Source of the DNA: Cyclina sinensis
Taxonomy: Eukaryota; Mollusca; Bivalvia; Venerida; Veneridae
Assembly (NCBI GenBank): GCA_012932295.1
Contig: JAAONU010000001.1
Coordinates: 24,672,193-24,736,192, forward strand
DNA length: 64,000 bases
Direction: 5' to 3'
Shown piece after piece: positions 4,330 to 63,897 of the stretch; the stretch's first letter is position 1; every line of letters starts with the position of its first letter. The notes under the pieces were generated by a model, which did not search any database, was not told the DNA's origin, and saw only the letters and a program-made list of their open reading frames with translations. A program made the translations under genes and the position numbers.

Positions 4330-4490
4330 TTCGGCTGTTTTGTTATGCCCACGCTAAAAGCCTGACTGAATGCCAGCGCTCTGTTGAGTTATGCTAGGCA
4401 ACGTCGCCAGACGTCGTTATGCTTGTTATGACGTCACAAACGTCAAATGGATTATGGGAAGCTATTCATACAAAAAATATAGTGTACAAG
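4330..4490 (-). promoter_or_regulatory. Candidate promoter of the lysine-rich gene, copy A
   Basis: Directly upstream of the start codon. It contains a full palindromic CRE, TGACGTCA (4,429-4,436), further ACGTC half-sites, and GTTATGCTAGGCAAC (4,388-4,402), which is one mismatch from the RFX X-box consensus. Both motifs are unchanged in copy B. A role is inferred from position and conservation only. Confidence 0.4.
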
Positions 4491-14017: not shown

Positions 14018-16767
14018 TTAGAATATAGGAATGTCGACCTCGTGGTCGGCATTCAAAGAATCGCGGTCAAGGTCGTCGTCGGAATAGCAGCAGGGGCCAG
14101 TGACTGATACAAGTGATGGCTCGGCAGTTGGCTGGTTTGTCGCCATGGCGGATGGGGTTCTGGCCTTCATTGTGGATCGGCATCGGCTGAGAACGTCCCT
14201 GTTTCTTTCTGCATTTGCCTGCTTTTCTTTGATGTTCAAGTCTGCCTTCTTGCGGAACTGGTAGTCACTGTCAGCCCTCTTTTCCTTACACTTGGCTCTA
14301 GGAATGTCAAAGATATACTCGTATAGCAATATAAGTTAGATATAGCTGTAAAAGATTCTGTAATATCATAAGTTTAGATACTTTCTTTTATGTTTGGATT
14401 ATTGTTTCGGTATTTCTCTTTGAGACTCAAAACATTACTTTGAAAAACGGTCATGTTTACACATCTTATAGCATTTACGTGAAAATTTCCAGTCAAAATA
14501 CAATTGCACATATCTTATGGCTCTTTGTCACGGTCTGCGCGTTAAATTTGGAAAACATCTTCAATTAACATGAATTTACTAGTCCTATATTTTGATATTT
14601 TTGTCATAGTCATTTTTACTGTGTTACCTTTTCTTTTCATATTCCCTGGCAGCGTTTGTCTTCTGTTCCAACATTTCGGCTCTTTTGTATGCAGCATTCT
14701 GCTCTCTTTCGTAACGTATCTACAGTTTGAATATGACAACACGTTATAGAAACGAAGAAATTTAAAATAGTTTAGATAGGCTTAAATTACAAAATCACAC
14801 TATGTCATCGGAAGCTTCCAACGGGGAAGTGACGATTCAAATTTAAAGATGACAAAAACAATAGTCCTTTTTCTCCAGGGTACTTCAGAACACTATGTCA
14901 CTTCAGTATCTTTAACAGTTAAAACAAAACAACTAAATTAACGTCACCGAGCAAAATATATGTTACAATTTCACAGAACTTAAATTTGTTCACAATGATG
15001 TGATAGTGTTTCAAGAGTCTGTTTTAACGGTATAATGTATCATTTCCTTTTTTCACTTAAGAAAACTGGAACTATAATAATTTAGGTCTTGTTTTCTTTA
15101 TACAGACACTAAACTTACAAGTCCAGGGGTCCTTTTGATTGGCGGAAGAAGCGGCTTCCTCAAGATGGTTGGTCGGCTGTCAACCTCAATGTTGAAAGAT
15201 TCACCTCCGCGGGCTGTTCGATGGTTATACTCCACTGTAATATGAAAAATAAAAAAAAATGAAATAACAATATTCTTCTGGACAAACCTTAAGTCTGAAT
15301 TATAAAAATTAGTTACATGTATCGTCTACAGATAACAATGTATGTTTAAATTGCTTATTTCATTGACTGTATTACTTACGTCCCATTGTCACTGGTATCA
15401 GTTGATATGAATTGTAAGAAATTTCCTTCATTTCAGTTTTTTTAAAGAAAGAAAGAAAAAACAAACATGTTAGGTTTTTTGGTTTAATTCAGTTTAACGC
15501 GATTTAACAGTCAAAGTCATGTTGGGGAGACAGTGTAATTGACCATCGTTACTGGGAAAGACCAGTACTAGACTCAAATTCTCTGTAAGTAACTGCTTAC
15601 TTTCTAACACAAATGGAAATGTTAAGTAGTGGGCCTCAAACCTATGACCATTCATCAGTGTGAGGTTACATGTTCAAACTGAGGGAAAGAAGCAATCAAA
15701 AACCATTATATTTAAAAAAAAAAATAAGAATAAAAGAATTTCATGCGGCCAGTTATTTTTGATTTTGATGAATAAATGACCATGAGATAAAAATAACACT
15801 CAAACAAACGAACCTAGTTTTGGAGGAGAAGTTCTGGCAGCAATTGCTTTCCGCTTCTTTTCTCTTCGTCTCTCTTTTCGCTTAGCGAACCATGTCGCTA
15901 TAAAACCAAACAGGCAAGGCAATTTTCTGCGACTCTTGATGTTTGCAGTATCTTCTCCCACCGTTTCTTCAATGTCTGAGGAGTTTCTCTGTACCTCCTT
16001 CTTATTTTGACATTTCTGTTAGAGATATGAATTGGTTATAAAGAGAAACAAAACAAGAACGTAAATAATGGACGAATAAGATACTAGTTATATTGAAAGT
16101 TGATTAAAAACAATATGATGAAATTTAAACAAGGAGGAACGACTAAAGGAAGGAAGGAAGGAAGGAAGGAACAAACGAACGAACGAAGAATGAACGAACA
16201 AACGAACGAAGAATGGATGGATGTTTGAAAGAAACTGATTTTTTATCTATGTGAACTATAATACGCTTAACTGTATATATATTGTAAGAATAGTTATTGT
16301 TTTACCTTGTCTTTCTTGATTTTCACGTTTTCCTTGGTCTTATTTCCAGCGGTGTCGGATTCTGTTCTAGCTTGACTTTTTTCGTCATTTTTCTGTTGTG
16401 CGTCGTCTAACGGCAACACGCGGTTCTTCATTTTTCTGCCTTTCTTCTTTTTCTTTTTCTTGCCCGTTTTCTCTGGTTCCTCGTCTCTTTTCTTTACCTC
16501 TGCAGATTCTTCATTAGTATCTTTAACCTCGGCCACCCTTGCTCTAAACATTTCTTCTATGTGCTTTGCATACGTGATTTCAACTTCGTTGAAACTTTCT
16601 TCAATTTTAGCTGTACGGTCGATGGGGACCAAAGGCTTCAGAGGGAAGAACTTCACATTATCACTTCGCGCGATAACAGCATTAAAATTTTTACCTGTGT
16701 CTTCCACGTTGTCTTTGGAGGATCCCTCCTCCAAAAATCTGACTCGGCGTGGTCCTTTTTCAGCCAT
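14018..16767 (-). CDS. Uncharacterised lysine-rich protein with RVxF motif, copy B (5 exons, 383 aa)
   Basis: Exons: 16,767-16,306, 16,015-15,814, 15,234-15,119, 14,719-14,628, 14,297-14,018. Exon lengths are identical to copy A (462, 202, 116, 92, 280), giving the same 383-residue length. By eye about eleven residues differ, for example E54K, D90E, S142N, and Pro to Leu at the end of exon 3. The RVRF motif, lysine run and C-terminus are kept. The donor of exon 1 differs outside the exon (GTAAAA here, GTATAT in copy A). No stop or frameshift has accumulated in either copy, so both may be expressed, or the duplication is young. This copy lies about 1.5 kb downstream of the complete ARPC1 on the same strand and converges with the TPR gene. 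Function unknown. Confidence 0.86.
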
Positions 16768-16930
16768 TTCGGCTGTTTTGTTATGCCCACGCTAAAAGCC
16801 TGACTGAATGCCAGCGCTCTGTTGAGTTATGCTAGGCAACGTCGCCAGACGTCGTTATGCTTGTTATGACGTCACAAACGCCAAATGGATTATGGGAAGC
16901 TATTCATACAAAAAATATAGTGCACAAGGA
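16768..16930 (-). promoter_or_regulatory. Candidate promoter of the lysine-rich gene, copy B
   Basis: It keeps the CRE palindrome TGACGTCA (16,867-16,874) and the X-box-like GTTATGCTAGGCAAC (16,826-16,840) of copy A, in the same order and spacing from the start codon. Confidence 0.4.
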
Positions 16931-30815: not shown

Positions 30816-33800
30816 ATGTGGACAGGAGCTGTTGTGAAAATTTCTCTCATTTCATCTTTTTGTTTCATTCTCGTCACAGAGGGTCGGAAGGGAGATGAAG
30901 ACGAAGGTCCTGTGATCCCGCCGTCGCAGTGTGAAGGTATGACAACATGCTTCATAATTTAAATCGTTCGATTCATTTTCTTCCTCATTCTAAGTTCTAA
31001 CGTTCTACTTTCACTTTAGTCTGTTATTGAAATCACTGCGTTTGTCGATTAATGTTTGTATTTTTGGACTTTTTGAAGAACTTATGATGTTTCATTATTA
31101 CATTTTTAAACATTGTATTATGTTTGAGCATAGATTTTAGCAATTTTCATTGAACACTTCAGTTAAATTCCCAGGGGATTTTCTGCCATACATGTGGAAT
31201 ACTCTGATTGGTTGATTCTTTATCAATACTTAAAGTTCAACCTAAAGTCTTGAGTTTCAAGATTAAAAACCAATATATGAAACAGTTATTAACATTGACT
31301 TGCATATCTTTTGTTCTGTCTTGTGTTTTATATATGACTGGTGAGTGGTAAGGACTTAATAAAACGTGTTCTTAGATTACATTTATTTCCTATACATATT
31401 TACTAACACTACAGTATATCTAAACTGGTCAACATATTAATCCAAACTCAGGGCCGGATCCAGAAATTTCTGACTGGGGGGGCTTGGGGGGGGGGGGGTT
31501 TGGGGGGCCTCCCCCAAGAAAATTTTCTAAAAAGGTGGAGTAAATGGCTCATTTTGGTGCATTTTAGGCATAAAAATATAATGAAATTTGTGTGAGAATT
31601 TAAAAGAAATATACTGGTATTCTTTGAAATGTTCAACTAAAGCAAGAAACTTTTTTCATTTTATATTTATAAAGTACTCTGAAACAAATAATTTATCAAT
31701 AAATTAATTGGCATAACAAATAACACCGTCATCACATTATCCAATCTCCTCGAAGCGATCTCCCCATCATTCTTTGGAAAGATCTCTGCAGACATGGGTT
31801 AACCTTAGCTGGATTTCAGCTGTTTAGTTTAGTTACAGTTGGAATTGCATTGATTAAACATGCCTGGCTGTAATGAAATTTTTTTTAAAAATGTAACTTG
31901 AAAAAAAGTTTAAAATTTTGTTTATTTACTTTCGACCATCATCACGTGACATGACTGTCAGCAGTGATTACTGTACTGAAAGTATGGAAGGGAAGTAACC
32001 GCTGTGTGGAGTTTGCACCATTTGGAACACCTCGGGCGACTTCAATAAGTCTTTATACGAAGTTGTCGGAAAAGGCCGAGTTGTTACGACTGGAGTTTGC
32101 ACAATATCATCAGGCAACTGATCATGGTCAGCAGACGCTCATTTAACAACTTTATCAAATACGTCAAGGTTACTAGACGCTTGAAAACTATACATCAGAA
32201 CTCTCGGATAATCCGTGCCACCGAATATACGGTACATTGTGTAATATACACGGCTATAAAGTTGCGAACTCGTTATCAGTTGTTACGCAATATTGCATGA
32301 CCATTGCAAATTGAAAGGTTGACTGTGTTTCTGTTACGAGGTGAAAAGAGCTGGAAAAAAATGTTTTAGAGTCTTTAAAAATGAGCCCTTTTAGTTTTTT
32401 TTACAAACGGGCCAGCTGGGGGGGCTTGGGCCCCTTAAGCCCCCCCCGGTAAATCCGGGCCTGCAAACTCTGTGACTACTTGTCTCATTCTGCTATCAGA
32501 GAGTACAGAGATGCTGCATTATAATAAGGCGGGGCTAATTATAAATGACAGGTATAGAATTACAAAGTTACAGACACTACATCCCCTCTCAACTCAGATA
32601 AAAAATAATTGTTTTCAAGATAACAGAATCAAAGACATTTTCTGTCAATGAACAATGTTTGCAATCTTCTGCTTAGCACAAACTATCATGTGTGTTTAAA
32701 TTTGTCCTGAGAAAAGTTCAACTGCATTTACACTTGGATAAACAGGTAGAGAATTAACAAGTGCTTGATAAAGTCTTAATGGCTATCAGTTGTAACAACA
32801 AAAGTCCCAAGAGTAATACATTAATTAACTGCTCATTCAAATTCTCATGATCTGGTACATAAATGTCAGTTAAAGTCTGGACTGAAAATCCAAAGATCAT
32901 TGTGCATAAAATATTCCTGTAGGTTCAAAGATAAACTAATTGTTCATTAAAGTATAGAACAAAGAAATTATCTGTTCTAACAAAGTATTTACAATATAGT
33001 ACATGATTATCACTTTCAAGGTGATTCGTCCCTGCACGTGTATAAATCCATGAATAGATAAGCAAACACATTGTTTCATCCTCTTCTTTTGTAGAGAATT
33101 TTTTTTTTGGCAGTGTGTTATTATGACACTGATTTCATTTCACAGATATTATTATGCAACACTATTTTTTTTAAATACATTTCACAAATAAATTCTTCTT
33201 TGCATCTTTTGCTTGAGTGAATATTATGTAACTTGTTAACGAAATTTACACGAAATTTATCCCTTAGTACTTTAACACACAAAGTCTTTCAAATATTCCG
33301 GTGGTTTTCTGTTTCTTGTAGATCTGCGCGGCATTACAGTAAAATCTTGTTCTGTAGAAGTATTTGATTGTGTTGATTTTTCTGTTCTTGGCTGTACTGT
33401 TTTATTTTCAGTTGTTGGTGATGTTACGTTTTCCGGTCTGATCTCTGGTGTAATGTTTTGTTTAGGTATTTGTTTGAAGTGCGAAGAATTTCGAGTTATT
33501 TGTTTATCATCACGTCTTGCAGTTACCATCGTTCCATTTTTAGAGGTTACTTCATATGGTACTGTATCAAAAGGAGTTGTAAGCTTATTACGTTTTTCTT
33601 GCTTTACAAGCACACGATCTCCTATCTTGAGGTTTGATTTCTTGGCATTTCTTCGTTTGTCAGCATAACTTTTCATCTTTTGTTTTGACGAAGTGTCTTG
33701 TTTTCTAGCTTCTGCGTCGATTTTTGATTTCTGCTTTGCTGGTATGCTTGGTATTTTAATGTTTATTGTTCTTCCGTAGAAAAGTTCTGCAGGAGTGTGA

Positions 33801-36800
33801 CCTGTGCTGGCATGTGGGGTAGCTCTGTAGTTTCTGAGATATGAATACATAACTTGTTTCCAAGAGGTATCTTGTGTATGTGCAGCTCTAATGGCTTTTC
33901 CTATGGACCTCATGAAACGCTCGCATTCAGCATTAGCTTGTGGCCATAACGGAGTAATTTTCCTATGTTTGAATCCTAGGTAGTCTGCAAATTGTTTAAA
34001 TTCATGTGAATTCATTGGACTGCCATTGTCAGATTTAAGTGTCTTTGGTATTCCAACTTCTGAGAAAATTTTGTCAAGTATAGGAATAACAGTTCTGCCA
34101 CAAATTGAGCTTATGACTTCGACAAATGGGAATCTTGAGTACTCATCAATAAGCACTAGTAGGTATTTTCCATCTGGAAAAGGACCGCAAAAATCCATAC
34201 TAACTTCCTGAAACGCGTATTCTGGCATTTTGCTCATGTTCAAAGGTTCTTGCTTTTGTCTGTTTGTTGCTGCCAAACACGGTATGCATCTTTTGCATTT
34301 TTCTTCAACCATCTTATCTATCCCTGGGAAATACACTTTTTCCCTGAGGAGTTGTTTCGTGCGAACAATACCCTGATGTCCCTCATGTGCAATTTCAATA
34401 ACCTTAAGTTGCAATGACTTCGGAATGACAATTTTTGTTAAAATATGCAGTAAAATTTCACCATCATCTAGAGTATCTACGGTAAGATCATTCTTACAAC
34501 GCGAAAATGTGTCTAGGGAATTGTTAATGTTCGAATAGTTTCATTTGCCTGATCTGACGTTATTTATGACGTTTTGAAGGTCAGTGTCTTTGGCTGTTGC
34601 TTGAATTATCTCTTGCATAGTCATGGCTTTTGGAATGTCATGATTTGCTTAGAATGACACATATTCTTCAGCAATAGTTGACATCGCATTACATTTTCCA
34701 AGCTGTGGATGTCTGCTTAGGTAATCAGACATATTTGATTCACCTGGCTTGTATATGACCTTGAAATCGTATGTCAGTAAGCTCATTCTCCAACGTTCTA
34801 GTCTTGCAGGTGGCTTTGACCTTGGATTGTTATAGATATGTACAAGAGCTTTTGCATCACTAATCAGTGTAAATTTATGTCCAAATAAGTAAATATGCCA
34901 GTGCTCTATAGCCCAAACGATTGCTAGATTTTCCTTTTCAGTTTGTGAGTATCTTGTTTCGACCTCTGTCAGCGATTTACTTGCATAACACACAACTTTT
35001 CCATTTTGTAGCATCACGGCTGCGACTCCAACTGGACTTGCATCTACTATTACTTCAGTTTCCTTCTGTGGGTCAAAGTACGTCATTACTGTGTCACTTC
35101 TAAGTGCAGTTTTCAGTTTTTGAAACGAAGCTTCTTGTTCGCTTTCCCATGACCATTTCGCATTTTTCTTGGTCAGTCTTCGCAAAGGCTCTGTTATAGT
35201 GGAATAATTTGGTATAAAGCGCGATACATAGTTCGTCATGGCAAGGAAACTTCTGACTTCCGATACATTTTTGGGTGCTTGTGTGTTTTTGATCGTTTCT
35301 ACTTTCTTTGGATCTCAGCTGACATGCCTGATTCTCCAAATACGTAACCAAAAAATTATAGCTTTCTCTTGTTGAATTCGCATTTTTGTTTATTTAGCGT
35401 GAGATTCTTCTGCTGAAGTCTTTGTAGGACTGCTTCGAGTCTTTTGTCATGCTCTTCTTGTGTCTCTGCAAACAGGATTACGTCATCCCTTATGTTTCTT
35501 ACGCCTTCTAGCCCTTCGAGTGCTGTGCGTAGTGCGTTCTGAAAGATTTCTGCTGAACTGTTGATGCCAAAACTTAGACGTTTGTATCTGTGAAGCCCTA
35601 CATGCGCTGTGAAAGTAGTTATGTTTCGTGATTTCTCAGAGAGTTCTAGCTGGTGATAACCTTGGTTCAAGTCTAATTTCGAAAATATGCGAGCTCCATT
35701 CAGATCAACTATCATATTGTCTATGGTTGGTATTATGTGTCGAGTTCTTTTTATGGCTTGATTCGGTTGTCTCATGTCCACACAGATTCTTATCTCATTG
35801 GTTTTGCTTTTAGGTTTTGGTGCGATAACTATTGGTGAAACCCAGTCTGTAGGTCCTTCTACCTTTTCAATGATGTCTAGTCTCTCTAAACGAGCAAGTT
35901 CATCCTCAACTTGTTGTCTAAGATGAAATGGTATGCGTCTGTGTGGTTGTGTCACAGGTTGTACGTTTGAGTCAATGTGCAATTCCACCTTGGTGTCTTT
36001 CATCTTGCCGATTCCAGTGAAAACTGTTTTGTATTTGTCGCAGAGCTCATTGACCTTGCTTGTATTGAGAGTGTTGATTTCAGGTATAACTTGAAGATCT
36101 ACAGATGTTGAATATGATAATAAGTTTCCACTTTGACCTTTGGCTATGAATATAGGCGCTGTAACAATCTTGTTTTCCGTTTCTATTGTTGCTTGAAATT
36201 TGCCTAATATTTTGACTGAAGTTGCACCATATGCATAAACTTTTGTGTCTGTTTTGCTGAGTTTGATTTTGCTTTTGAGCTTATTGTATGTTTGTTCATC
36301 TATGACATTTATTGACGAGCCTGTGTCTATGAGAACCTTCAATGGATGACCATTTACGTGAACTTGAATTTTCGGTCTCCGTGATTGAACTGAATTTATG
36401 TTTTCACACGACAATATAAATGAATAGTTGGTTTCTGCTTGGATATTGTCATTTTCGTTTTCGCTTTGGCTGCTGTCATCACTGTTTAGATTATGAACCG
36501 CTTTGTTTATCTTTTTTGAACAGCACACCCTTTCAAAGTGATTTTTCTTATTGCAGTAGGTACATGTTTTTCCTGCTGCTGGGCATCTGGTGCCTGTCTT
36601 GTGCGGAAAGTCATATCCACAGTATCTGCATTGTATTTGCTTTCTTCTGGGCGTATCGACTGTTTGCCTCTGTTGACGTATCTTGGTGGTCTTTTTTGAG
36701 TTAGTCTTTCTTGTAGACTTCAATGCATATGATTCCTGTTTTGTTGGATTTTCTATTTCTGATGCTTGCTTGTCAGATAGTTCCAACGCTCTAGCTTCTT

Positions 36801-39800
36801 GTATCAGGCTATCCAGTGACATGTCTGCTTTAAGTGCTTTTCTTCTTAGTCTTGTAGATTTACAGCCTTGAATTATTTGTGTCTTAATTTCTCTGTTTCT
36901 GTCACTAAATTCACAGTTCTCAGACAGTTTTCTTAGACGGGTGTAGAAACTGTCCATAGATTCGTCACTGTTTTGCTTGGCTTGTCTGAATTTGTAGACT
37001 TCATATTCTACACATTTCTTTGGACTGAAGTATTCGGTGAGCTTTTCTACAGCTGTTGTGTAGTCATCCCCTGTGTCTTGGAGTGTGTCGAATATGTCCT
37101 TGACTTCTTCACCAGCATAATGTAAAAGCAATGCACGTTGTCGCTTTGTGTTTTTAATGTCCAGCCCTATGAGTAGGTTATCTAGCCCACTACAGCACTT
37201 TTTCCAACGAGTGTCAACTGCTGCCTCACTAACACTGAAGCTTGGAAACACTGGTAATCCTTGTGCCATTTTTCATTGAAACCACAGTATTCTTAATGAA
37301 TCAATGAAGTTGTTATGTCACTGTATTATCCAGCAAAGTGTTTTAAACTTTTATAATTCCAACTTGTGTGTGTGTCAGTTCCGCAGTTAATTCCAAAGAA
37401 ATTTAGTTAATCCATTTACACTTTAAAATCCATTTATTATCTTGTCGCCATTGTACTGTCTTGTGTTTTATGTATGACTGGTGAGTGGTAAGGACTTAAT
37501 AAAACAACATGTTCTTAGATTACATTTATTTCCTATACATATTTACTAACACTACATTATATCTAAACTGGTCAACATATTAATCCAAACTCTGTGACTA
37601 CTTGACTCATTCTGCTATCAGAGAGTACAGAGATGCTGCATTATAATAAGGCGGGGCTAATTATAAATGACAGGTATAGAATTACAAAGTTACAGACACT
37701 ACATCTTTTTGACCAGATTTATTTACTGAAACATGATTGGTTGCTTTTAGGAGAAAAGACATGAACTAAAATAACTTAGCAGTCAGATTTTCTGTTTAGC
37801 CAACAGTATATGACATCTTATATATTCTAGCAGAAACAATGTGAGAGAAAATGTCATTTTCAAATAATTAAAAAAACTTAAGTAGTTATCAGTATTTTTA
37901 CTGGTTATGTTAAAATAGTGCCCAGTATAAGATGTTCATTTATTGATAAATAATGAACTGTATCATGTAAGACACATTTGTAGTAATTATGAAAGAATAT
38001 TGGGTAACTTATCTATTGCTAATCAGTTATTTTTTTAGTTACTAATTTTAAGATCTACTGATTCTCTAAACAGTTGTTGTGCAAATCTGAATCAGTTATA
38101 GCTTATAGTTTCTAGATGTTTGAAGAAGACAGTTTTATAGCATCAGTTTATTTTCAGTATTGTTTACTGTGCAAATTTTCATTTTCAGATGCATTTATCT
38201 TGAGAACATATCAGTTATAGAGAGGTTTATTGACTGTTAATTGACTTTCTGGTTGAATAACAAAAAGTGTAGATCATGACAAGACTGCACTCTGGTCTCA
38301 GATTCAGAAATAAATGATATTTTCAAACTGACTTTCCTTTTCAGTATGTAAGTATTTAGCAACAGAATTAAAAGAAAGACTTGAAGAAACTGGAAAGACA
38401 AAAGAAGTCCTACAAATAGGTCATGGTCTGGACACTAAAAAGAAAAAGAAGATTAAATACAACACATCGTAAGATATTAATTTCATTTTCACTGAGGGGT
38501 CTGACATCTTGGCATCTGATTTTTAAAAATATTGTTGAGCAAATATCAAGTTTGACAAAATGAAAAAAATGAGTCTTTTCTCAGCTTTGGCTCTGGCTCT
38601 AAGGGAAGTTTCTGCCTTGTATTAACTGGTGTTCAGTTGTAAATATATACTTACGTTATTGTCAATTTGAGAGTAACTGAATACCCTAGGTCCAATGTGG
38701 TAATTTTAACAAAGTTGTGGTATTATGACTGCCAAGTATTGGCTTAGTGTATGAGTGCTTTGAAATGGAAAAAATGCATTTTAATGAAATTTTATTATAA
38801 ATGATTCTTATGTTTTCATTTTAGGGAATTACGACTGATAGAAGCATTACAAAATCCTCACATCTGTGATAAAATTCTTGAATATAACATTCACAAAGAG
38901 AGAGAAGGAAGTTTACGATTTGCTAAGGGACAGAGTCAAACATTTGAAACATTACATAATCTTGTGTAAGTATAGGCACATCAAAACATAAGAGTAAATA
39001 CTTTTAATAGTTCAAAGGTAAATTAGGTGCAAATATCAGGAATATGTAGAAAAAGTCAACAGAGCTAGCCTGTATAGTAAGATGGCTTATGGAAATTCAA
39101 CATGACTACTTCAGTATTATATCTTATTTAATGAAAAGCATAGGTTACTCATGCAGTAAAGTTCACGGTGGACTTCTTTCTTTCTTTCTAGAAGTTGTTA
39201 CAATGGCAGAAAAAAAAATTATCAAAAAGTTGAGACATGGTATTTAGTTGTCTTACGGACATGAAAGTTCAGTACAGAACGAGGCAATGCATCTTGGGAA
39301 AGACCGCCTAGAGGATTCGAACTCGGGTCCTCCTGCATTGAAAATCAGTGCTCTAGACCACTTAGCCTAAGAATCGATTCCCTGATGCCATTGTCAGAGT
39401 TTGTAGGCTGGTATGCACTGGACCATAACAGTTGTTCATAAAAATCAGAAAATAAATTATGTAGTTTTGATTGCTGATTGGTACTAATAATGTTAATACT
39501 ATCGGACTGGTTCAGTTGTAATTCAGGATTGAAATCTGATTAGTGCAATTACTTTTTAGCTCACCTGAGCATATTGTGCCCAGCCAAAGCACGGCACATC
39601 TGGAAATGTTAATATGCTAAAAATCAACATTGATATTAAAGTGACTGACTCACAAAAGAAAGATGTTTATACATATAGAAATTCTGGTTATTATAGTGAA
39701 GTATATATCTGAACTAAATTACTGTGTCATTTTTTGGTACAGAAACACATCGTAAGTTTTTCACACTTTTATTGTTGAGGAATTTTAGCCCGTTAGTCAC

Positions 39801-42800: not shown

Positions 42801-45800
42801 AACTGTTGTTTTGGGGGAGGTAATTTTGAAGAGGGATGACAAACCAGCCTACCTTGTTGCAACACAAGCAACAAACATGTTTATCACAAATAATATGATA
42901 ACTCAGAGGAGCACAGAGTTAACTGTGATAACGTCTCTACGGAAGTACCCCTCCCTTGCTCCTACTCTGCATGTTAGAGTTCACTGACCTATGGTTAAAC
43001 AAAGGGTCTGTGTGTACGGAGGGTATGATTATAGAGGTGAGTTGTGTAAGATTAAACAAAACAAATTTATAAGATTTCTCATGTTTAACATGTCTTTATT
43101 CTAATTCCATAGTTATCATACAACCTTATATTGATAGATATCATAATAAAAAACAAACATTCTGTAAAAAATGCTAGAGATGTTTTATTGTAATATTTTT
43201 TATCTTTTGCATTAAACCTTTGTCTTGGTTTTACTTCAGGTCAGTTGGTTAGAGTCACTCACTTGAAAACCTTTTTACTAATAAAAAGGGGGCAGTTGGT
43301 TTGAGCCCAGCTATATGTAATAAAGGCTGCAGATTCTCAAAGAGATCAGGAGTGGAGTACTGGCACATTTATAAAATGATCATTGTCTGACAGATAAACC
43401 ACCTGCCTGTGCTAGATGAGGCTAAAAATTTATTTAATATGTACATAAAACTCAAAATTAATGAAATTAGACTTCCTTAGTGGAAGTTATGTGTAGTACA
43501 TGTAGGTTGCCTAATATAGGTCATTATGTTTGAACAAGTTTGAACCAGTGAGTAGTTCAGATATTTTTACTGATTATTTCATTCTGCAGGAAGACAACCA
43601 GAGAATGTTTAAGGTCAAAGGAACAGATGTTTCAATAAAACAGTTACACATTAAGATGGATCTCGGAAGGCAATGATCACACTCTAGTGGGATGCAACAT
43701 GTTGTGATGCCACTTGGGATTTTGTGGAAGTAACAAAGGTGATGTGAGAAAATTAGACTTTGTCCACGACTGTACAAACATCAATTAAGGTATGTTTGAT
43801 AAATTTCAGATGTGGTATCAAAATGTTATGGTCTGTTTCATTGTATGAATTATGATACCTTATTATGTTACATTTATTACTTTATGGCCCTTAATGTTGG
43901 CAGTTTCTTATGGAGACTGGCCATAAAAGAAGGATGGTTAGATAAACTGCCCGCTCTGATAAATTATTGAATATGATCTGGACATTAAATTCAAAACAAA
44001 CCTAAAAATAATAACTACAATAAAAATATATTTAAACAATATTTCTGTGAAGTTTGAATACGATTCTATGCAGAATTTTTTACTTATAATTATTACCTAT
44101 CTAAATTAATTCCACAATTATCTTGTATTTTACTACAATGCCTTCTTAATGTGTCATTACAGTGATCTATATATTTTTTTGTGTCGCCTGCTGCAAAGTA
44201 GCCACGACATATAGGTATCACTTCTCTGTTGTCAGTCTGTGCATCCGTCACAAAAATTACTTCTCAGAAACTACAGGTGCAATTTCATCCAAACTTTACA
44301 GGAATGATCAGTACCAAGTCTAGTTGTGCATATCATCGGAATTTTCCAGTTTAATGATTTTTGTGAGAGCTATGGCCCTTTAATGATTTTTTAAAACTTC
44401 TCTTATACTACTAACGCAGTTTGAATGAAATGTTACAGGACTGGTCAGTACCTCAAGTACTTGCGCGTATCTAATGGGTTTTTAAGTGGAATAATTTTTT
44501 GGCTGAGTTATGGCCCTTGATTATAAAAAGGTGTTTTGGCCCGTTAATGATTTTTGTGTTGCCTGCTTCACAGTAGCTGCGACATGTTACAAAGTAGCCG
44601 TTACATGCATGGATCACTTCTCCATTGTCTGTCTGTCCATCCGTCCATCTGTCACAAACTTGTCCAGACTACTCCTCAGAAAGTACTGGTGCAATTTCAT
44701 CCAAACTTTACTAGAATGATCAGTACCAAGTTAAGTTGTGCAAATCATCGGCATTTTCCAATTCAATGTTTTTTGTTAGAGTAATGGCCCTTTAATGATT
44801 TTTATTTTTAAACTTCGTCTGGACTTCTTCTCTTATACTACTGAAGCAATTTGAATGCAATGTTACAGGATTGATCGGTACCTCAAGTACTTGGGCTTGT
44901 TTAACAGGTTTTTCGGTTAAATGATTTTTGGCTGAGTTATGGCCCTTGAATAAAAATCTAGTTTTAGCCAACAATCTGTCCAATCACCTCGCAATGCAAC
45001 TGCTTAATTGGCTATCATCAGGTGACACATGTGATCACTGATTGCCCATGTATTTCCAATTAAAGTTTCAGTGAATACATCTTTTGATATTTTGACTTAA
45101 CGTTGTGTAATTATGCCTGTTCACCAGTTGTTGTTTTTTTCATAATTTTTAGAATTGTGAAACAGGCTTTGCATTTGAGGAACTGCATGTAGTTGCGGTC
45201 AGTATGGAAGACAGCAAGGCAGAGTTATTACTGCAAGATACATTGTCATGGTATTGCCAGCAGATGTTCTCTTCTTTGCTCTTGGTGATGACCCTGCCAC
45301 TGTGGTTTGCAGAACATGGATCAGTTCATTTGGAGATCGAAAAGCAAGGCAGTGAAGTTTTAGGAGTTAAAATTGTTGAAACTTGGAAATCTAGTATCCA
45401 AAATCACAAGAACATTATACAATAGGAAGACAAGTGCATTAATAGATGAATAATTAATGAAAACTTCTTGTATATGAAGGTGCATAAACATGATAGAATA
45501 AGTATATCACAGAAAAAATGATGCTCAGATTTAGAAAAACTGTAACTTAGTTATAGAAAAATCTTTTCTGTTAATTTTGTTTTTATTTCATTTTGTTGTC
45601 GTGAACTTTTTTTTTCTATTATATGATGCAAAGTGTGGCCAGTTTATTGTTTGAATAAGGTCTTGATTTGGAAATATAAGTACAAGGTTTATTTACATTT
45701 TACTGTGCACTAGACTAGTTTAAATTTTCAGAGCAGAACTGAATTCCTTAAATAGCAATCATCCAGAAATAAATTAACCTAAAACAAATACATTTGTAGT

Positions 45801-48800
45801 CTTAGTTAACATTTAATTTTGCGATGCCTCGAATCCCCAGTCTCTCAGTAGCCTTTATGCACAGTTGTTGAATGACATTAAGAAAGGTTTACATGTACCT
45901 AAAAAAGTGATATAAATGTCTTGTCCTTTCTTTGAAGAATGTATGTGAGTGGAACTTATGTTGTCTTTTACAGTTCTGCTTACTTTTTTTTAATTTGTTC
46001 CTATGCATAAAACCACTGGTATATACTAGTCTGATCTCATTTATTTTATATTCTAGAGTAAATGTTATATTGACCTCGTGTTCTTGTCTGTTTTCAAATC
46101 TCTTCCTGCTGATGACTATGTAGGCAAAATTACATTGTGTGTTGTTAAGTTTCTTAACATGAAAAAAAATATTTTTACCTCCGTAGTAAGAATGGGTCCA
46201 TTACACTTCAAAATACATGGTACATCTACAAGTTTCAGAGATGATCACCAAGGCTTCTTAAGATTTTTTTTAAATGAACAAGCTCATGTATTAAAGGCTG
46301 TAACTTTCAAAATATTATTAGTTTTGTGTTTTTTTTTGCTTTGCACTGGTGATTGTCCTGAATGTAAAAAGCAAAATGCTGTTCCTAAGTTCAGAGACCT
46401 ATTTTTGTAAATGAAAAATCTTGTTTCCCTAGTACCGGTAAAATATGTCACTTGCACTGGTGAAACGTTTAAATGCTGTTATTTAAGTCGTAGTTCCTAA
46501 AACGGACAATAACTAGAAAATGTGATAGAGAGTCATGTGCGTCCTACCAACTACTGTGTCTGCAAAGTTTCAGTTCTGTATCTTCAAGGTTTCCACGATA
46601 CTGATGTTTCAAAAAAAGTGACGGTATTATTAAAGTTAAAGGACTGAAACACGATCAGACAATTTCCAACATTTTGCAAAGGAATTGTTACTTTTGAAAC
46701 TCTTCATTGTATTCATTCTTCGCCCCCATCAGTACTTTCAGTGCTTTGATTAGTAACAAAGGTGTTGAAGTGAAGACGGATATACCTTATGCACTCTGGA
46801 ATACTACACCAGCAGAAGTTACCCAAATGCATAAAAAAGTAAAGATTTGATGCTTTAAGTCTTGTAGATGTCTTTTATCATTTTGCTAGAGAGGCTGTTT
46901 TTCAGTTCTCAGGAGAGTGGACGGGGTTTACGATTCACGTTATTGTGAATAAAGCAGTGTAAATTACGTTACCAAATTACAAAAGCAAATTAATTTGATA
47001 TTTGGTTAAATCTCTGGTTTTTTATCACAAATCCAAGTCACAGCTTCTTGGCCACATAAATTCATTATAATTAGTCTTCATAAACACTGTTTTAGTCTTC
47101 ATGACTTTTACAGAAGAAATATACTAATTTCAAGGGGTCATGATTTAAAAATCATGAATCCATGTTTTCTTTTCTCCAGACTTTATTAGAAATCCAAGAA
47201 TTTTAGAAGCTGTAAATAGAAATCAAAAATGAATTTGTGAAGAAATAATTAATTTGTTAAATCATAAAGATTAATTGCATAAATTTTGACATTTTTGATA
47301 CTGGGTGTATTTCTAGGAATCAGATTGTATTGCTGGCTGCCTGAGAATTGAATTCTCTCTAATTGCCTCTGTCTGATGTCTTCATTTCGAGTTTTATCTG
47401 CATGTATTTCATCTCTTGAACTTTTATTTTCTTGGCAGCCATTTTTCATGTTTAAACTAAAGCTTGATGTAACACCAGTAAGTACCTGTCAGAAGTAGTT
47501 TTGTTAGTTCAACCTGCATGCATTTACTTTATTTTTCTTGAGTGCCATTTTTAAGGTGAAATTAAAGGTTCATGTTATTAACATCAACCTTTAGGCAGTA
47601 GTCATATTATAAGCAACCACTTCATTACATTTCAGGGCTAGCAGGCTACCAGAATGTAGTGGAGGGGGTTTACAATTCATGTTATTGTGAATAAAGCAGT
47701 GTAAATTACGTTACCAAAATTACAAAATGATGCTTATCATAATCATATTGCAACTGTTTACTTCAAATTTCGCACTGGTTCTAAAGTCTTTATCAGTATT
47801 TTACTGAACAATGACATTCTCAAAGTTTTACTGGATCTGAATAGACACCTGTTTTTAACCTGATTTCAAGAGTTACAGAGTTTAATTCTTCCCCAAATCC
47901 CATTGTTTTAGAGCAAAAGATTTGTGATAGTGACTATTTATTATTTTTAGCAACAAGGGTGTGAAAGTTGTTATGGACATACCCTTTGAACTCTGGAACC
48001 ATACGCCAGCCGAGGTGTCACAATTGCATAGAGAGGTAGAGTGATTGTTTAACTATCACCTTTCATGCATACTGACTGGCATTTGGTACAGATTCCTTGT
48101 TGTACATCACCCCTCTTCATCTTTCTCCAAAATTACTTCATGAAATGAACTTAAACACCTACGTTTTAATCACTCAGGTTGCTAGTGCATGATCCATTTT
48201 CTGAAAGCAGACAATGTTGAAGTTGTGTCACTTTTTCTGTTAAATCACACAAAAACATGTCCCCTTACTTGTTCATCTACAGAGGTTGCAGTAATCTCTT
48301 TTTCTGAATGGTAGACAGGTTGAAAATATGCCCCCTTACCTATTAAACACCTAGGTTGCAGTTCCTCCTACCTTTTAAATAACACAGGCTTCATTGGTGA
48401 TCCCTTTACCTGTTAAGTCACACATGTAGCAGTTGTTCCCTTACTCAGATATGCCAGCAAAAGCAGATACAAGTGCAATACAAAAATGCAAAAAGAAAAT
48501 ATATTCAGAATCTCCTAGCATATTAACCTTAGCTATCCAAGTTAAAATATAATTGTATTTATTGATTTTGTGTATTAGCATTTCCTCGGCGTTTTCGCTT
48601 TTGTATATGTACATGTTTTGCAGCTTTTCATCTTTCGTGTTGTACATTTGTAGGTGGATTGAGAGCATTCAGTCATTAGATACATTATCCTACTATTTTA
48701 CCATAGGAGTCGAAGCTGGTTGACTACAAGCTCACTGCTCAAAATTTATCTGTACTGATATATTTTTGTCTGTATGCTTTGATTTGTATATTTAAGGAAT

Positions 48801-50896
48801 AAAGGGGTGAAGGTCGATTTAGGTATTCCTTATGAATTATGGGATACACCATCAGCTGAAGTAACACAGCTACAGCGAGATGTAAGCAATGTTTCAGGCA
48901 TTTCCGTAATGCTAGAGTTAATTCTTAAAGTTATCATCTCAGCTTGATTAGAAAAGAAACCACTGTTATTTGGTTTTAAGCTGTTGAAATATATAAGAAT
49001 GAATTGATTTCTTTGTATACTTCTGCAAAATTCAAGGCGACATTTATTCCATCCAAACTTTGAACAAGATTTTTTTTTGACAAGGAACTTGGCCTGAATG
49101 TATATTTCTAAATATTTTTTTTTTTAATAGATTTTGAATATTAAGTACTGCTTATTTAAAAAGAAATTTAAGTAATTATAAATACTTAATCAGCATTAAT
49201 CTCAAAATGTTAGTGTTTACAACATTCTTTTCTAATATGGTGTTAATTACTCACATAAGATATCATAAGATGCTTAGTTTACATATTTTTGAATCACTAT
49301 CATGTAATATTTTATTTAAGTAGCAATATTTTGTACTTTTAAGTACTATCTCTTAGAAATGTATCACCATCTTTGAAGTGAAAAAAATACTTGTTCATGT
49401 TATTCGGCTTAAATTCTAAATGTTAGAAGCTGAAGTATTTGCTTACCTTTAAGCGCTGTATATTTCCTTTTGTACAGACTGACAGAACTTGTATATTTCA
49501 GTGTTTTACAGTAGTTGAGAGGTATGAGGAGACTATAGAGGACTGGTATTTCAACCATCAAGATAAGGACATTGTAGACTATCTCTGTAGAAAATATGTA
49601 CTTAAACATGATGACCAACGTAAGTTGTGTCTTTATATTTAGGGGGATTTTACTGCAACATCTTAAACTCTTATCAGCTGCAATAAAATTCTGCCAAAGA
49701 AATTTGCTTATTCCAAAATGTCAAATGCAGGTATAATGATTACCTAGAAAATGATACCTTGTACAGAAAAATATGCGTGTGTGGGGGTGTTCAGCAGTAA
49801 AAATCCCTGAGCTTTTATTCTTTTTAGTGACTGGCCAATTAATGTGTGGTGTCATAAGAGAGAATACTGCTGTTAAGTAATCAATGGCTCAATCTCTGTG
49901 TTGTTAGCAGTACTTTACTTGAATAAATCATGCAGTACTGTTGTAACAACACTTGAAAGAAGATAGAATAGTTTTGCATTGAAACCTCGTTCTGATATTC
50001 TCTTGATATAGTATTAAAACCAAGATTTCTGCAGTTAAAGAGTAAGGAACTCGTATAAAAAAATAGAAATGAATATGAAGTAATGTCTAATGTTTCTGAT
50101 TGCAGAATGTTTAGATGAAGTGTTTGTACCTAAAGGAGATACTGATGAAATTGAAGAAGAAAAAGACAAGAAAAAGTCTACAGCAAAAAAATCAAAGAAA
50201 AAGAAGGATAAAAGTGAGTATAGTCAAAACATGATAAAATGAATCAGAGTAGAATGGAACACAATAGAATGAAACACAATAAAATGAATCACAGTTGAAG
50301 GAAACAGAATGTATCACAATAGAATGAATCACAATAGAATGAATTAAAATATAATGAAACAAAATATATTGAAATAACAACAAAATGAATCACAGTAAAA
50401 TGAAACACAATAGTGTGAATCACAATAGAGTGAATCACAATAGATTGAATCACAGAAGATTGAACCACATCACAACAGAATGAATAACAATACAATTAGT
50501 CACAATAGAATCAAAGGCTGGGTTCTTTGGTTGGTGTGATTCTATGTAGTTATTTTAGGTTCATCACCAATTCAAAGAATAGCTTTACTTTTATAGTTAC
50601 TGGTGATATTTCCTCTCCTTTTTAGTGAAAAGATTGATATGGCTTTAAATGCTTTACTGTTAAAAACAACTGAAAGGTGTAAAGTGAACAGAATATGACT
50701 GACTTGATATTAGAAGTTAATTTAGAAAATAAATGCCATTCCCTCTTCATTTCTCTACTCATTTAAAGTTGTAGCATAACTGAAATTTTCACAAGAGAAA
50801 AAAAACCCAGTAGTTTTATACATATATGTAAATTACCGTAAATGTATTTGTATTCCAGGTAGGAAAGGTGAAACTGAAGAGAAAACAGAATTATGA
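30816..50896 (+). CDS. CNPY3/4: Canopy-family ER co-chaperone (CNPY3/4 type), 244 aa, with alternative exon 4
   Basis: Canopy proteins are saposin-like ER proteins; vertebrate CNPY3 (PRAT4A) works with HSP90B1/gp96 in folding Toll-like receptors. Exons: 30,816-30,936, 38,345-38,468, 38,825-38,965, one of three 85-bp exons (46,754-46,838, 47,951-48,035 or 48,797-48,881), 49,502-49,619, 50,106-50,213, 50,859-50,896. Phases agree with any one exon 4, total 735 bp. The protein has a signal peptide ([20 protein letters not shown]), six cysteines at 39, 42, 96, 158, 186 and 198 as in the family, [32 protein letters not shown], a lysine-rich tail and a C-terminal KTEL that resembles an ER-retrieval signal. 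Intron 1 is 7.4 kb because of the LTR element. CNPY3 and CNPY4 cannot be separated on the constant part alone. Confidence 0.95.
31312..32581 (-). repeat. 3-prime LTR of the Gypsy element, split by a nested insertion
   Basis: It matches 37,452-37,703 on both sides of the insertion at 31,449-32,463. Without the insert and its target duplication the LTR is about 249 bp, against 252 bp for the other LTR. Because the element is on the minus strand, this LTR is downstream of the integrase. Confidence 0.95.
31449..32463. mobile_element. Nested hAT-type non-autonomous transposon, 1,015 bp
   Basis: Ends CAGGGCCGGATCC and, on the other strand, CAGGCCCGGATTT, each followed by a G-rich run. CAAACT flanks both sides (31,443-31,448 and 32,464-32,469); the other LTR has this site uninterrupted near 37,580. 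CAGGG-type ends are typical of hAT elements, whose target duplication is 8 bp; here only 6-7 bp still match. No transposase frame is seen. Confidence 0.9.
32582..32592 (-). promoter_or_regulatory. Polypurine tract of the Gypsy element
   Basis: TTGAGAGGGGA on the minus strand directly abuts the 3-prime LTR (TGTAGTG…). It is the expected primer site for plus-strand DNA synthesis. Confidence 0.75.
33272..34414 (-). pseudogene. Gypsy integrase region
   Basis: 380 open codons. In order: a zinc-binding H-H-C-C module (HEGHQG… with CKRCIPC), then the catalytic core with D in [11 protein letters not shown] in LKSDNGSP and E in ANAECERF (D,D,E arrangement), a segment with ELFYGR, and a C-terminal module with PYEV and NGTMVTAR resembling the GPY/F domain. 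It ends [10 protein letters not shown]. It lies in the same frame as the RNase H region but is cut off from it by stops at 34,649-34,651 and 34,541-34,543, so it is not made as part of an intact polyprotein. No motif inside the integrase itself is obviously lost. Confidence 0.9.
34649..35239 (-). pseudogene. Gypsy reverse-transcriptase connection and RNase H region
   Basis: 196 open codons, starting in the connection ([20 protein letters not shown]) and continuing through RNase H: D in [10 protein letters not shown] in QTEKENLA and D in LISDAKALV. It ends at an in-frame TAA (34,649-34,651). Relative to the upstream reading frame it is shifted; the shift lies between about 35,240 and 35,300. 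Confidence 0.85.
35356..37269 (-). pseudogene. Gypsy gag-protease-reverse transcriptase region
   Basis: 637 open codons from an ATG at 37,269. The gag-like N-terminal domain ([13 protein letters not shown]…) is followed by cysteine/histidine knuckles (CRYCGYDF and [14 protein letters not shown]), an aspartic protease with [13 protein letters not shown], and reverse transcriptase with [15 protein letters not shown] and the catalytic pair in [10 protein letters not shown]. The residue before the Asp pair is Arg, where Ser, Ala or Met is usual. The frame ends at a TAA (35,356-35,358) inside RT; the family sequence appears to continue in frame for a few codons beyond it before a frameshift. Gag and pol share one frame with no gag-pol shift. 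Confidence 0.9.
37441..37450 (-). promoter_or_regulatory. Primer-binding site of the Gypsy element
   Basis: TGGCGACAAG on the minus strand, one base inside the 5-prime LTR. The TGG start pairs with the CCA end of a tRNA. I cannot name the tRNA with certainty. Confidence 0.7.
37452..37703 (-). repeat. 5-prime LTR of the Gypsy element, 252 bp
   Basis: Intact LTR starting TGTAGTGTCTG and ending GACAGTACA on the minus strand. It is followed on the plus-strand side by the TCTTT target duplication at 37,704-37,708. Confidence 0.95.
39240..39400 (-). repeat. SINE-like element with tRNA-type B box
   Basis: On the minus strand TGGTCTAGAGCACTG precedes GAGTTCGAATCC (39,324-39,313), the spacing of polymerase III boxes in a tRNA. 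The flanks do not form an acceptor stem, so this is a tRNA-derived repeat and not a tRNA gene. It belongs to a different family from the SINE at 30,390. Confidence 0.55.
44190..44960. repeat. Two tandem ~380-bp repeat units in CNPY intron 3
   Basis: Units start near 44,185 (GTGTCGCCTGCTGCAAAGTA) and 44,555 (GTGTTGCCTGCTTCACAGTA). Shared blocks are GCAATTTCATCCAAACTTTA, GATCAGTACCAAGT, ATCATCGG, GCCCTTTAATGATTTTT and GGTACCTCAAGTACTTG-like sequence. No coding frame runs through both. Confidence 0.8.
46754..46838 (+). CDS. CNPY3/4: CNPY mutually exclusive exon 4a
   Basis: 85 bp, acceptor TTGATTAG, donor GTAAAG. It enters in phase 2 and leaves in phase 0, and encodes residues 129-157 starting [20 protein letters not shown]. 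It is the most divergent of the three: Glu before Leu-Trp is replaced by Ala, and Val-Lys-Val by Val-Glu-Val. The frame is open. The donor, after a run of six A, is weaker than those of 4b and 4c. Confidence 0.88.
46915..46980. repeat. Hairpin-forming 60-bp repeat downstream of CNPY exon 4a
   Basis: GGGGTTTACGATTCACG… with inverted arms ATTCAC and GTGAAT around GTTATT and outer arms TTTAC and GTAAA. It is almost identical to 47,658-47,722. It lies about 80 bp after the donor of exon 4a. Confidence 0.7.
47658..47722. repeat. Hairpin-forming 60-bp repeat upstream of CNPY exon 4b
   Basis: Second copy of the 46,915-46,980 repeat, about 230 bp before the acceptor of exon 4b. The inner arm is ATTCAT here, which still pairs with GTGAAT through a G-U pair. 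Confidence 0.7.
47951..48035 (+). CDS. CNPY3/4: CNPY mutually exclusive exon 4b (CNPY3-like)
   Basis: 85 bp, acceptor TATTTTTAG, donor GTAGAG, same phases as 4a and 4c. It encodes [20 protein letters not shown] and on to HRE. The core VVMDIP-ELWN matches my recollection of vertebrate CNPY3. Confidence 0.93.
48797..48881 (+). CDS. CNPY3/4: CNPY mutually exclusive exon 4c (CNPY4-like)
   Basis: 85 bp, acceptor TATTTAAG, donor GTAAGC, same phases as 4a and 4b. It encodes [20 protein letters not shown] and on to QRD. The core VDLGIP-ELWD matches my recollection of vertebrate CNPY4, not CNPY3. Confidence 0.93.
50225..50515. repeat. Degenerate ~15-bp minisatellite in CNPY intron 6
   Basis: About 19 units around the consensus AATGAATCACAATAG, with variants AATGAAACACAATAA and AATGGAACACAATAG. 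It begins 12 bp after the exon 6 donor. Confidence 0.85.
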
Positions 50897-62039: not shown

Positions 62040-63897
62040 CGAGGGGTGATTCAAAAGTTCGCGGAATTTATCTCTAAATCATTTATTTTTTCACCGAATC
62101 ACATTAAATTTCGCATAAATATAATTCAACGTATTTTAACTAACATTTTCGTTTAGTTTATGGAATATGTGTAACCGGAAGAATATAAATGGTCTCCATA
62201 GCAACCACGGTTAGGTGACTTGAAGCAGGCCAAAATATTTCGTTTTACTAATTCACTTCAGACGATAGTATGTTTTCAAATGTTGCTCAATTTTGGCGCG
62301 AACGTAACTGACGTTAGAATGACGTGTTGACGTCATTTCCTATAATTTTGATTACATTACGTTGAACCGTTACTCCACAGCAGCGAGTTGTCGCCATGTC
62401 TTCAACTTCTTCCGCGACGTCAACAAGTGAATTGGAGCTACGCGCAGTTGTGAAATTTTGTGTTGGACTCAAACTTACACCAGTTGAGACGTTGAATCAA
62501 ATTAAAAACTCGCATACATTACAACCTTGTGGTAAATCGTTTGTCTACAAATGGCATGAGCGATTTCGGAACGGCAGAAAATCGGTACTTGATGACGATA
62601 GAGCAGGTAGACCAGCATCCGCTATGACGACGAGCAACGCAACGTTAGTGAGAGAGCTTTTGGACAACGACCGGCGCTTAACGGTTAGGGGTATTGCAGA
62701 GGAACTCTCCCTATCGTATTCTACTGTGCAACGAATTCTTACAGAAGAGCTAAATATGTCCAAAGTATCTGCGCGTTGGGTGCCCAGACTTCTGACTGAT
62801 GAAAACAAGCAGCGGAGGTTAGAATGTTCTCAGCAATTTCTGGATCTGTACGACGCACAGGGTGACGAGTTTTTGGACAAAATCATCACGACAGACGAGA
62901 CATGGTTATACCATTATGATCCAGAGTCGAAACAGCAGTCGTCCGTCTGGAAGTCACCAGACACACCTCCACCAAAAAAGGCCAGGACAACACGCAGCTG
63001 CAAAAAGGAAATGTTCATCTTCTTCATGGATAGACAAGGGCTTTTGCTTCAACACAAGGTGCGCGACGGATGTACCGTAAATGCCGACTATTATTCAAAG
63101 GTATGCCGCATTTTAGTCATACAAACGATCAACACTTATATATTATTTTTATAACAAACTAATATTTTACAGTATGTATTGTTTCAAATAACAAAATATA
63201 TAAAAATATTATTTAAAATGTGCCGCTTTTTACTTTCTTAAACTTAAATTATTTCATGTTTTCCCGTTTGTTTGTTTGACTTCAGGTGCTTAGACGCGAT
63301 CTGATACAGGCTCTGCGCCGCAAGCGCCCCCTGTTGGTACTGGATGATGTTATACTCCATCATGACAACGCTCCAGCACATCGGGCACAGAGTACAGAGT
63401 TAGAGATTTCACTGCTTGGTTTCAGTCTCTTACCACATCCGCCGTACAGCCCGGATCTAGCACCGATGGACTTTCGTCTGTTTCCAGATATGAAGAGGGA
63501 ACTCAGAGGCCAGAGATTTGAAACAACATTAGAGCTACGCAATAAGGCTCGTGAAGTAATCTCTTCATTCAGTCAGGATTGGTTTAAGGTAACATTTATG
63601 CAATGGGTACAAAGGCATAGGAAGTGTGTAGCGACGGGCGGCGATTACGTCGAGAAGGTGAATCGTACGCTAGAATTTGACCGTTAGTGACGTCGACGTC
63701 GTGATGGCGTGCGTCAAGTGCCGGTCATGTATACAATTCAAATATGTACAAACGATTTATTAGTAAATGTATTTCAATGAGATTACGGCTCTGCTTTAGT
63801 ATTGAGTAAACGTATCGAGTGATGTAATTTTTGTGTTTGTATTGTCTTTTCCGTTCTAGTAATAAAGCAATTCCGCGAACTTTTGAATCACCCCTCG
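62040..63897 (+). mobile_element. Mariner transposon, apparently intact, 1,858 bp
   Basis: 29-bp perfect terminal inverted repeats beginning CGAGGGGTGATTCAAAAGTT (62,040-62,068 and 63,869-63,897), flanked by TA on both sides (62,038-62,039 and 63,898-63,899). It encodes a full transposase with all catalytic residues. It lies in an ECI1 intron, antisense to that gene. Perfect repeats and an undamaged frame suggest a young, possibly still mobile copy. Confidence 0.96.
62396..63687 (+). CDS. Mariner transposase with one intron, 368 aa
   Basis: Cut-and-paste DNA transposase (DD34D). Coding parts are 62,396-63,100 and 63,286-63,687. The frame stays open for 17 codons into the 185-bp gap, but family alignment requires the jump, and the gap has a consensus donor AAG|GTATGC and acceptor TTGACTTCAG|GTG. 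Two helix-turn-helix regions for binding the repeats are in the N-terminal part (VETLNQIK…SFVYKWHERF, then LTVRGIAEELSLSYSTVQRIL). The linker has WVPRLLTDENK. The catalytic aspartates are D167 (TTDETWLYHYDPES), D262 (HHDNAPAHR) and D297 (SPDLAPMD), with 34 residues between the last two. Length compares with about 345-355 aa for typical mariners; the extra residues are a Ser/Thr-rich N-terminus. The start ATG follows GTTGTCGCC. Confidence 0.93.

Follow-up and report, generated by a model that had tools for sequence, protein, structure and literature searches.

In the clam Cyclina sinensis, a single canopy gene probably switches between CNPY3-like and CNPY4-like forms through mutually exclusive alternative fourth exons, the same versions that in vertebrates are split between two paralogues. 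The gene lies on the forward strand of the 64-kb stretch of DNA analysed here (the window), and judged by its predicted products it is an ER-type canopy (CNPY3/4) co-chaperone gene, as a sequence-only reading of this DNA had proposed. The spliced model begins with a hydrophobic, signal-like N-terminus (judged by eye), the PF11938 (DUF3456) profile scores 89.8-95.5 bits (cut-off 21.1) on the domain part of each isoform, and the three products, containing exon 4a, 4b or 4c, are each 244 aa long and end in KTEL. The model has GT-AG introns throughout. The exons are as follows.

30816-30936, + strand: exon 1, coding part from the ATG, with a signal-peptide-like start (donor and frame; tblastn against Mercenaria P0001 residues 3-38, 53% identity, E 6e-7)
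38345-38468, + strand: exon 2 (tblastn, 90% identity to Mercenaria P0001 residues 39-80)
38825-38965, + strand: exon 3, the common upstream exon (tblastn, 84% identity)
46754-46838, + strand: alternative exon 4a, b-like, with the sequon NTT followed by Pro
47951-48035, + strand: alternative exon 4b, CNPY3 type, with the sequon NHT followed by Pro
48797-48881, + strand: alternative exon 4c, CNPY4 type, without a sequon
49502-49619, + strand: exon 5, the common downstream exon (tblastn, 85% identity)
50106-50213, + strand: exon 6, lysine-rich tail (tblastn, 73% identity)
50859-50896, + strand: exon 7, C-terminus and stop, with a KDEL-like end (acceptor and frame fit; 9 of 10 residues as in Mercenaria P0001, tblastn E only 1.4 by itself)

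Exons 4a, 4b and 4c are each 85 bp long, lie between an AG and a GT, and share the same phases: the first two bases of a Val codon come from the end of exon 3, and each copy stops at the end of a codon, such that each encodes residues 129-157 of the product. The starts, length, phases and residues given for the three copies by the sequence-only reading agree with our model, and the donor at 38965 and the exon 5 start at 49502 lie where it had placed them. Approximately equal length of neighbouring internal exons has been used as a criterion for mutually exclusive tandem exons (PMC3228551), and three marks of a tandem-exon cluster, equal-length neighbouring exons, kept splice sites and frame, and homologous peptides, are found in 4a, 4b and 4c. 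Their peptides match each other with tblastn E values of 1e-10 to 4e-8 in the window, and no further copy of exon 4 was found within the 64 kb, intron 3 included, where the next match was no better than E 0.3. The three copies are well diverged, with nucleotide identities of 70, 63 and 61% over 84 bases (25, 31 and 33 differences) and pairwise peptide identities of 16-18 of 28 residues. The differences fall at codon positions 1, 2 and 3 in numbers of 6, 6 and 13 for 4a/4b, 10, 4 and 17 for 4a/4c, and 9, 4 and 20 for 4b/4c. Synonymous difference is near saturation (0.71-1.05) and non-synonymous difference low (0.19-0.26), with pN 0.19 against pS 0.71 for 4a/4b, 0.26 against 0.75 for 4a/4c and 0.21 against 1.05 for 4b/4c, and in an unaligned comparison that has no null the 48 intron bases on either side of each exon are 23-40% identical. 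This combination of near-saturated pS, low pN and unlike intron flanks indicates that 4a, 4b and 4c are diverged duplicates under constraint, and the third-position bias together with the unlike flanks identifies them as diverged coding exons rather than an assembly repeat. An assembly artefact or recent repeat is ruled out by the 61-70% identity of the exon copies and their unlike intron flanks, and separate gene copies within the window are rejected on tblastn with P0001 and P0005, two Mercenaria canopy proteins, which gives one strong match in the window per flanking exon.

The length of these exons has direct consequences for splicing. Across the eight possible combinations of exon 4, the frame is open with any single exon only, as had been claimed before; since 85 cannot be divided by three, inclusion of none, of any pair or of all three (five combinations) runs into a stop somewhere in codons 133-170. 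These premature stops lie 213-357 nt upstream of the last exon junction, and a stop well upstream of the last junction is expected to trigger nonsense-mediated decay. Mis-joined transcripts would thus end early and be removed, and from this we infer mutually exclusive splicing of the exon 4 versions in the clam. No enforcing element other than this frame lock, coupled to decay of the wrong products, is visible. Steric block by short introns is ruled out by the lengths of the introns around the copies (1112, 761 and 620 bp), and the GT-AG borders of every intron in the model speak against minor-spliceosome incompatibility. Competing intronic RNA pairing of the docking and selector kind is known for some exclusive-exon clusters and is not required; in a single-sequence comparison of 40-nt tiles, with intron 3 tiled over its first and last ~1 kb, intron-intron pairing was no stronger than in shuffled sequence (best -30.9 kcal/mol, against -26.8 to -34.2 in 7 dinucleotide shuffles). 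It is likely that protein regulators choose between the exons. The same decay-prone products could alternatively serve as a dial of unproductive splicing, in which the level of canopy protein is adjusted through decay of transcripts with multiple or no inclusion, and the isoforms themselves matter little. All five wrong combinations stop at a distance from the last junction that would suit such a role, but a dial by itself would not keep diagnostic residues and a sequon difference across phyla, and we regard it as quite improbable as the main purpose of the cluster.

The diagnostic residues were defined on 199 proteins listed from searches with the 4b and 4c isoforms (the best 120 of 534 and of 770), that is, on close relatives selected by b and c queries. 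Segments were classed by Asp (b) or Gly (c) at the ninth residue, a rule set after the sequences had been seen, and could be parsed in 198 of the 199 proteins, giving 86 b-type and 112 c-type; counted as distinct segments, with one further protein added, there are 14 b and 87 c. Five positions separate the two classes, which read V, M, D, N, T in b and E/D, L, G, D, P in c. The exceptions in b are a single D and a single K, both at the first position, and in c a single I, H and N each, with T in four cases. At these positions exon 4b reads V M D N T and exon 4c D L G D P; exon 4a reads K T D N T. Among the matches listed, all 58 vertebrate proteins named CNPY3 (PRAT4A) are b-type and all 13 named CNPY4 (PRAT4B) are c-type, the latter all from fish in the wide sense, and at the protein level these paralogues of the same family therefore each keep a different version of the exon. 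By these residues, exon 4b is the CNPY3 version and exon 4c the CNPY4 version of exon 4. In vertebrates there are two genes with one version each, in contrast to the clam, where one gene would have the choice. The remaining 28 listed b-type proteins comprise four named invertebrate proteins (two from Mercenaria, one from Dreissena and one from the nemertean Lineus), two fish proteins termed 'hypothetical' and 22 without a protein name, including P0038. Most molluscs among the matches listed show a c-type protein only, and there is no arthropod b-type protein among the matches (the best 120 of 534 and of 770), a distribution that weighs against our reading. The sequence-only reading had expected of this cluster three client- or partner-binding variants of one co-chaperone; three alternative fourth exons are indeed present, and what it missed is the main pattern, namely the identity of 4b with the CNPY3 version and of 4c with the CNPY4 version, and the difference in sequons.

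A similar pair is found in Mercenaria mercenaria, whose canopy protein is the closest in our flank tree to that of the window gene (80% identity over 210 columns outside exon 4). Two database protein models of 243 aa each, X1 and X2, are identical outside exon 4 and differ at 11 residues, all of them between residues 134 and 155 and inside the exon 4 segment (residues 128-155). X2 (P0001) is b-type and is named canopy homolog 3-like by NCBI, whereas X1 (P0002) is c-type and is named canopy 4-like, a pair consistent with the use of one exon per transcript. The names thus flip with the exon, and the exon 4 piece must carry much of the CNPY3/CNPY4 signature. The Mercenaria case differs from ours in that no third, 4a-like isoform is among the matches listed and in that it is known from database proteins alone. 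As sequence, the cluster of the window gene is real, and it is probably a functional exclusive-exon cluster in the canopy family. We note that a second Mercenaria canopy protein, P0005, is b-type and has different flanks which group with Mercenaria's own gene; its contig is equal in size to that of the isoform pair, and it may stem from a recent duplication, with only one of the exons fixed in the copy.

The distribution of the two exon types relative to the rest of the protein bears on their age. When exon 4 is cut out, the tree of the window protein and 50 others picked by hand needs six changes of b/c type: Mercenaria X1 and X2 occupy one position, Dreissena (b) and Mya (c) share a group, and the nemertean Tubulanus (c) falls with Lineus and P0038 (both b). 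A clade of all b-type proteins is rejected on this tree with a p-AU of 4e-6, a value obtained with the identical Mercenaria pair left free, with a bootstrap that had not settled, and for a group drawn from the same proteins and not named before the tree was seen. In a tree of the exon segment alone (26 rows, being 23 proteins and the three window exons, over 28 columns), which is poorly resolved, b and c split once with a support of 66/89, a result partly built in by sampling with b and c queries and by a rule set after the sequences had been seen. The simplest account of a flank tree that mixes b and c and an exon tree that splits them once is an old exon pair within one gene. We accordingly take b and c, as far as their sequences tell, to be such a pair, which would probably date to bilaterians; vertebrates would then have kept a single exon of the pair in each of their two genes. 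Such a division of the pair needs CNPY3 and CNPY4 to be sisters, and this is the grouping found in the flank tree, with weak support (51/85).

It is also conceivable that the b exon arose separately in vertebrate CNPY3, nemerteans and bivalves by duplication of a c exon, with no ancestral pair. Among the matches listed, the c-type is found in more animal groups than the b-type, and a convergent origin of tandem exon duplications within a given set of gene families is reported to be common (PMC9741552). Against this, M, D, N and T are common to all 14 distinct b segments; the residues found there in the 87 c segments are L or I, G, mostly D and mostly P. Compared with vertebrate CNPY3, exon 4b of the window and the b exons of Mercenaria X2, Dreissena, Lineus and P0038 moreover match at 19.0-23.2 of 28 residues; compared with vertebrate CNPY4 and the c exons of molluscs and arthropods taken together, they match at 11.5-16.2, and with mollusc c exons by themselves at 11.5-14.8. 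Convergence is for these reasons an unlikely explanation. Returning to the old pair, its fullest form would be an ancestral bilaterian switch of which vertebrate CNPY3 and CNPY4 are the frozen halves, which clams and perhaps nemerteans still splice, and to which this clam has added a third setting; we consider this whole history evenly balanced between being right and wrong.

There is precedent for such a division of exons. Tandem exons of FYN and the SRC family and of CACNA1F and CACNA1S are likewise mutually exclusive duplicates of which paralogues keep single ones, and these cases have been described as subfunctionalisation (PMC9741552). They concern vertebrate kinases and ion channels, in contrast to an ER co-chaperone whose multi-exon state is found in a bivalve. 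Alternative splicing of tandem exons that depends on stress is reported for a bivalve in the duplicated exon 10 of the Crassostrea virginica AOX gene, which differs from the present case in being a terminal exon pair in an unrelated protein (PMC5589949). In the open-licence literature, to which our search extended and which was judged mostly by title, no alternative-exon cluster was found described in the canopy family, in keeping with the earlier claim that none was known, and the terms 'mutually exclusive exon' and CNPY occurred together in unrelated contexts only. If our reading is true, an ER co-chaperone joins the genes for which one lineage achieves by alternative splicing what another achieves by gene duplication.

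The third exon, 4a, is less readily placed. It is probably a b-derived, faster-evolving variant by its sequence: at sites where the other two copies agree, 4a has 9 unique changes of which 7 are non-synonymous, compared to 11 (5) in 4b and 17 (7) in 4c, and this proportion makes it the loosest of the three copies. Its terminal branch is the longest in the exon tree (0.62), and it has T where all other segments have M, L or I. These same features would be expected if only 4b and 4c were alternatives and 4a were a copy of 4b that is in decay or out of use and is passed over by the spliceosome, and this alternative also draws on the presence of just two Mercenaria isoforms of the gene, and of no 4a-like protein, among the matches listed. 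A search limited to the 4a region returned one shrimp c-type protein, and is a weak negative, being so insensitive that it missed vertebrate CNPY3s sharing flanking words. Set against decay, the frame, length, phases, AG/GT borders and sequon of 4a are all intact, as are the exon 4 columns (G, V, V, P, W) that do not vary among 64 proteins, and the pN/pS of 4a/4b is low. An unused 4a is consequently a serious possibility that we nonetheless think somewhat doubtful, and on the state of its sequence 4a is rather to be regarded as functional, this being the likelier of the two.

The b and c exons also differ in an N-glycosylation sequon (the WN-x-T site), present in 86 of 86 b segments and in 1 of 112 c segments among the matches listed. 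The single c-type exception, P0008 from Sinanodonta woodiana (ELGIPYQMWNDTPAEV), combines b and c features and may have arisen by exon conversion or be an intermediate. The exon 4 site is the sole sequon in 48 of the 58 listed vertebrate CNPY3 proteins and in Mercenaria X2, whereas X1 has none. Twelve of the 13 listed fish CNPY4 proteins carry another sequon (NTSE), and the window protein, computed as the 4a isoform, has a sequon of this kind at residue 80, within exons common to the three isoforms. Because of this second sequon in CNPY4 and in the window protein, the exon swap is no clean switch between a glycosylated and an unglycosylated form. In 4a and 4b the exon 4 sequon is followed by Pro, and Pro after a sequon lowers its use. 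A CNPY3 glycosite has been measured in a glycoproteome (PMC9869281), and it is probably the exon 4 site, because two monkey CNPY3 proteins have only the exon 4 sequon.

The structural setting of the swapped piece was taken from AlphaFold models of Mercenaria X2 and X1 (mean pLDDT 77 and 78; 78-88 for the block at residues 121-150). Exon 4 there begins after a helix ending at residue 128 with a stretch that is mostly loop, broken by a short turn at 139-141, and extends into the start of a helix at 147-162. The secondary structure of the two models is identical, and as such they offer no explanation of a functional difference. Among solved structures, none was found by sequence at E 0.001 and there was no meaningful fold match (best E 1.3).

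CNPY3 is described as a GRP94/gp96 co-chaperone for TLRs (PMC11629888), and CNPY3 is reported to raise and CNPY4 to lower membrane TLR levels (PMC9065090). The Met that is fixed in b-type exons has the number 140 in two monkey proteins (P0036 and P0045) and 147 in two other proteins of 278 aa (P0035 and P0064), and its position is occupied by Leu in 4c and Thr in 4a. A point mutant of PRAT4A with altered TLR selectivity is reportedly M145K, from the work of Kiyokawa et al. in 2008. The fixed Met would be residue 145 of human CNPY3 if the human leader is as assumed here.

We propose that tandem duplication of the fourth coding exon has given a canopy gene of which one version would be used at a time, 4b yielding a CNPY3-type and 4c a CNPY4-type protein. 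The swapped piece, modelled on Mercenaria, would be an 18-residue, mostly loop stretch and the first part of the next helix, reading V-M-D...N-x-T with a sequon in the b version and E/D-L-G...D-x-P without one in the c version. Exon choice would then set one glycan and client handling, and by analogy with the vertebrate proteins, splicing in the clam would set a receptor-promoting CNPY3-like or a receptor-limiting CNPY4-like form. The splicing choice in the clam may therefore do what two genes do in vertebrates, and bivalves would, if this is true, gain a splicing dial on receptor maturation. The link of clam exons 4b and 4c to the vertebrate CNPY3/CNPY4 pair is new and unusually informative. 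It traces much of what distinguishes CNPY3 from CNPY4 to a single piece of 28 residues with the remaining protein constant, as in a natural experiment. Whether the exon 4 loop, with or without its glycan, decides between promoting and limiting the surfacing of receptors is a question now open to test, which two diverged vertebrate paralogues blur and the clam gene sharpens.

Several further features were observed in the introns and surroundings of the gene. The intron between 4a and 4b holds both copies of a 70-bp direct repeat (46916-46984 and 47658-47727, 94% identical) that has no other copy in the window, and which may be a mobile-element remnant or a splicing element. Intron 1 contains, at 33272-37272 on the - strand, opposite to the gene, retroelement ORFs in three pieces with reverse transcriptase, RNase H, aspartyl protease and integrase domains, presumably Gypsy-like from the domain order. 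A stretch of ~380 bp is duplicated in intron 3 (44194-44541 and 44590-44969, 77% identical), and intron 6 has a degenerate minisatellite with a 15-bp unit at 50228-50496. Mariner/Tc-type transposase ORFs (PF01359, PF13358) lie in two pieces at 62366-63154 and 63280-63687 on the + strand. On the - strand, two near-identical ORFs ~12.4 kb apart (3829-4353 and 16294-16791), without a Pfam match, are a sign of duplication.
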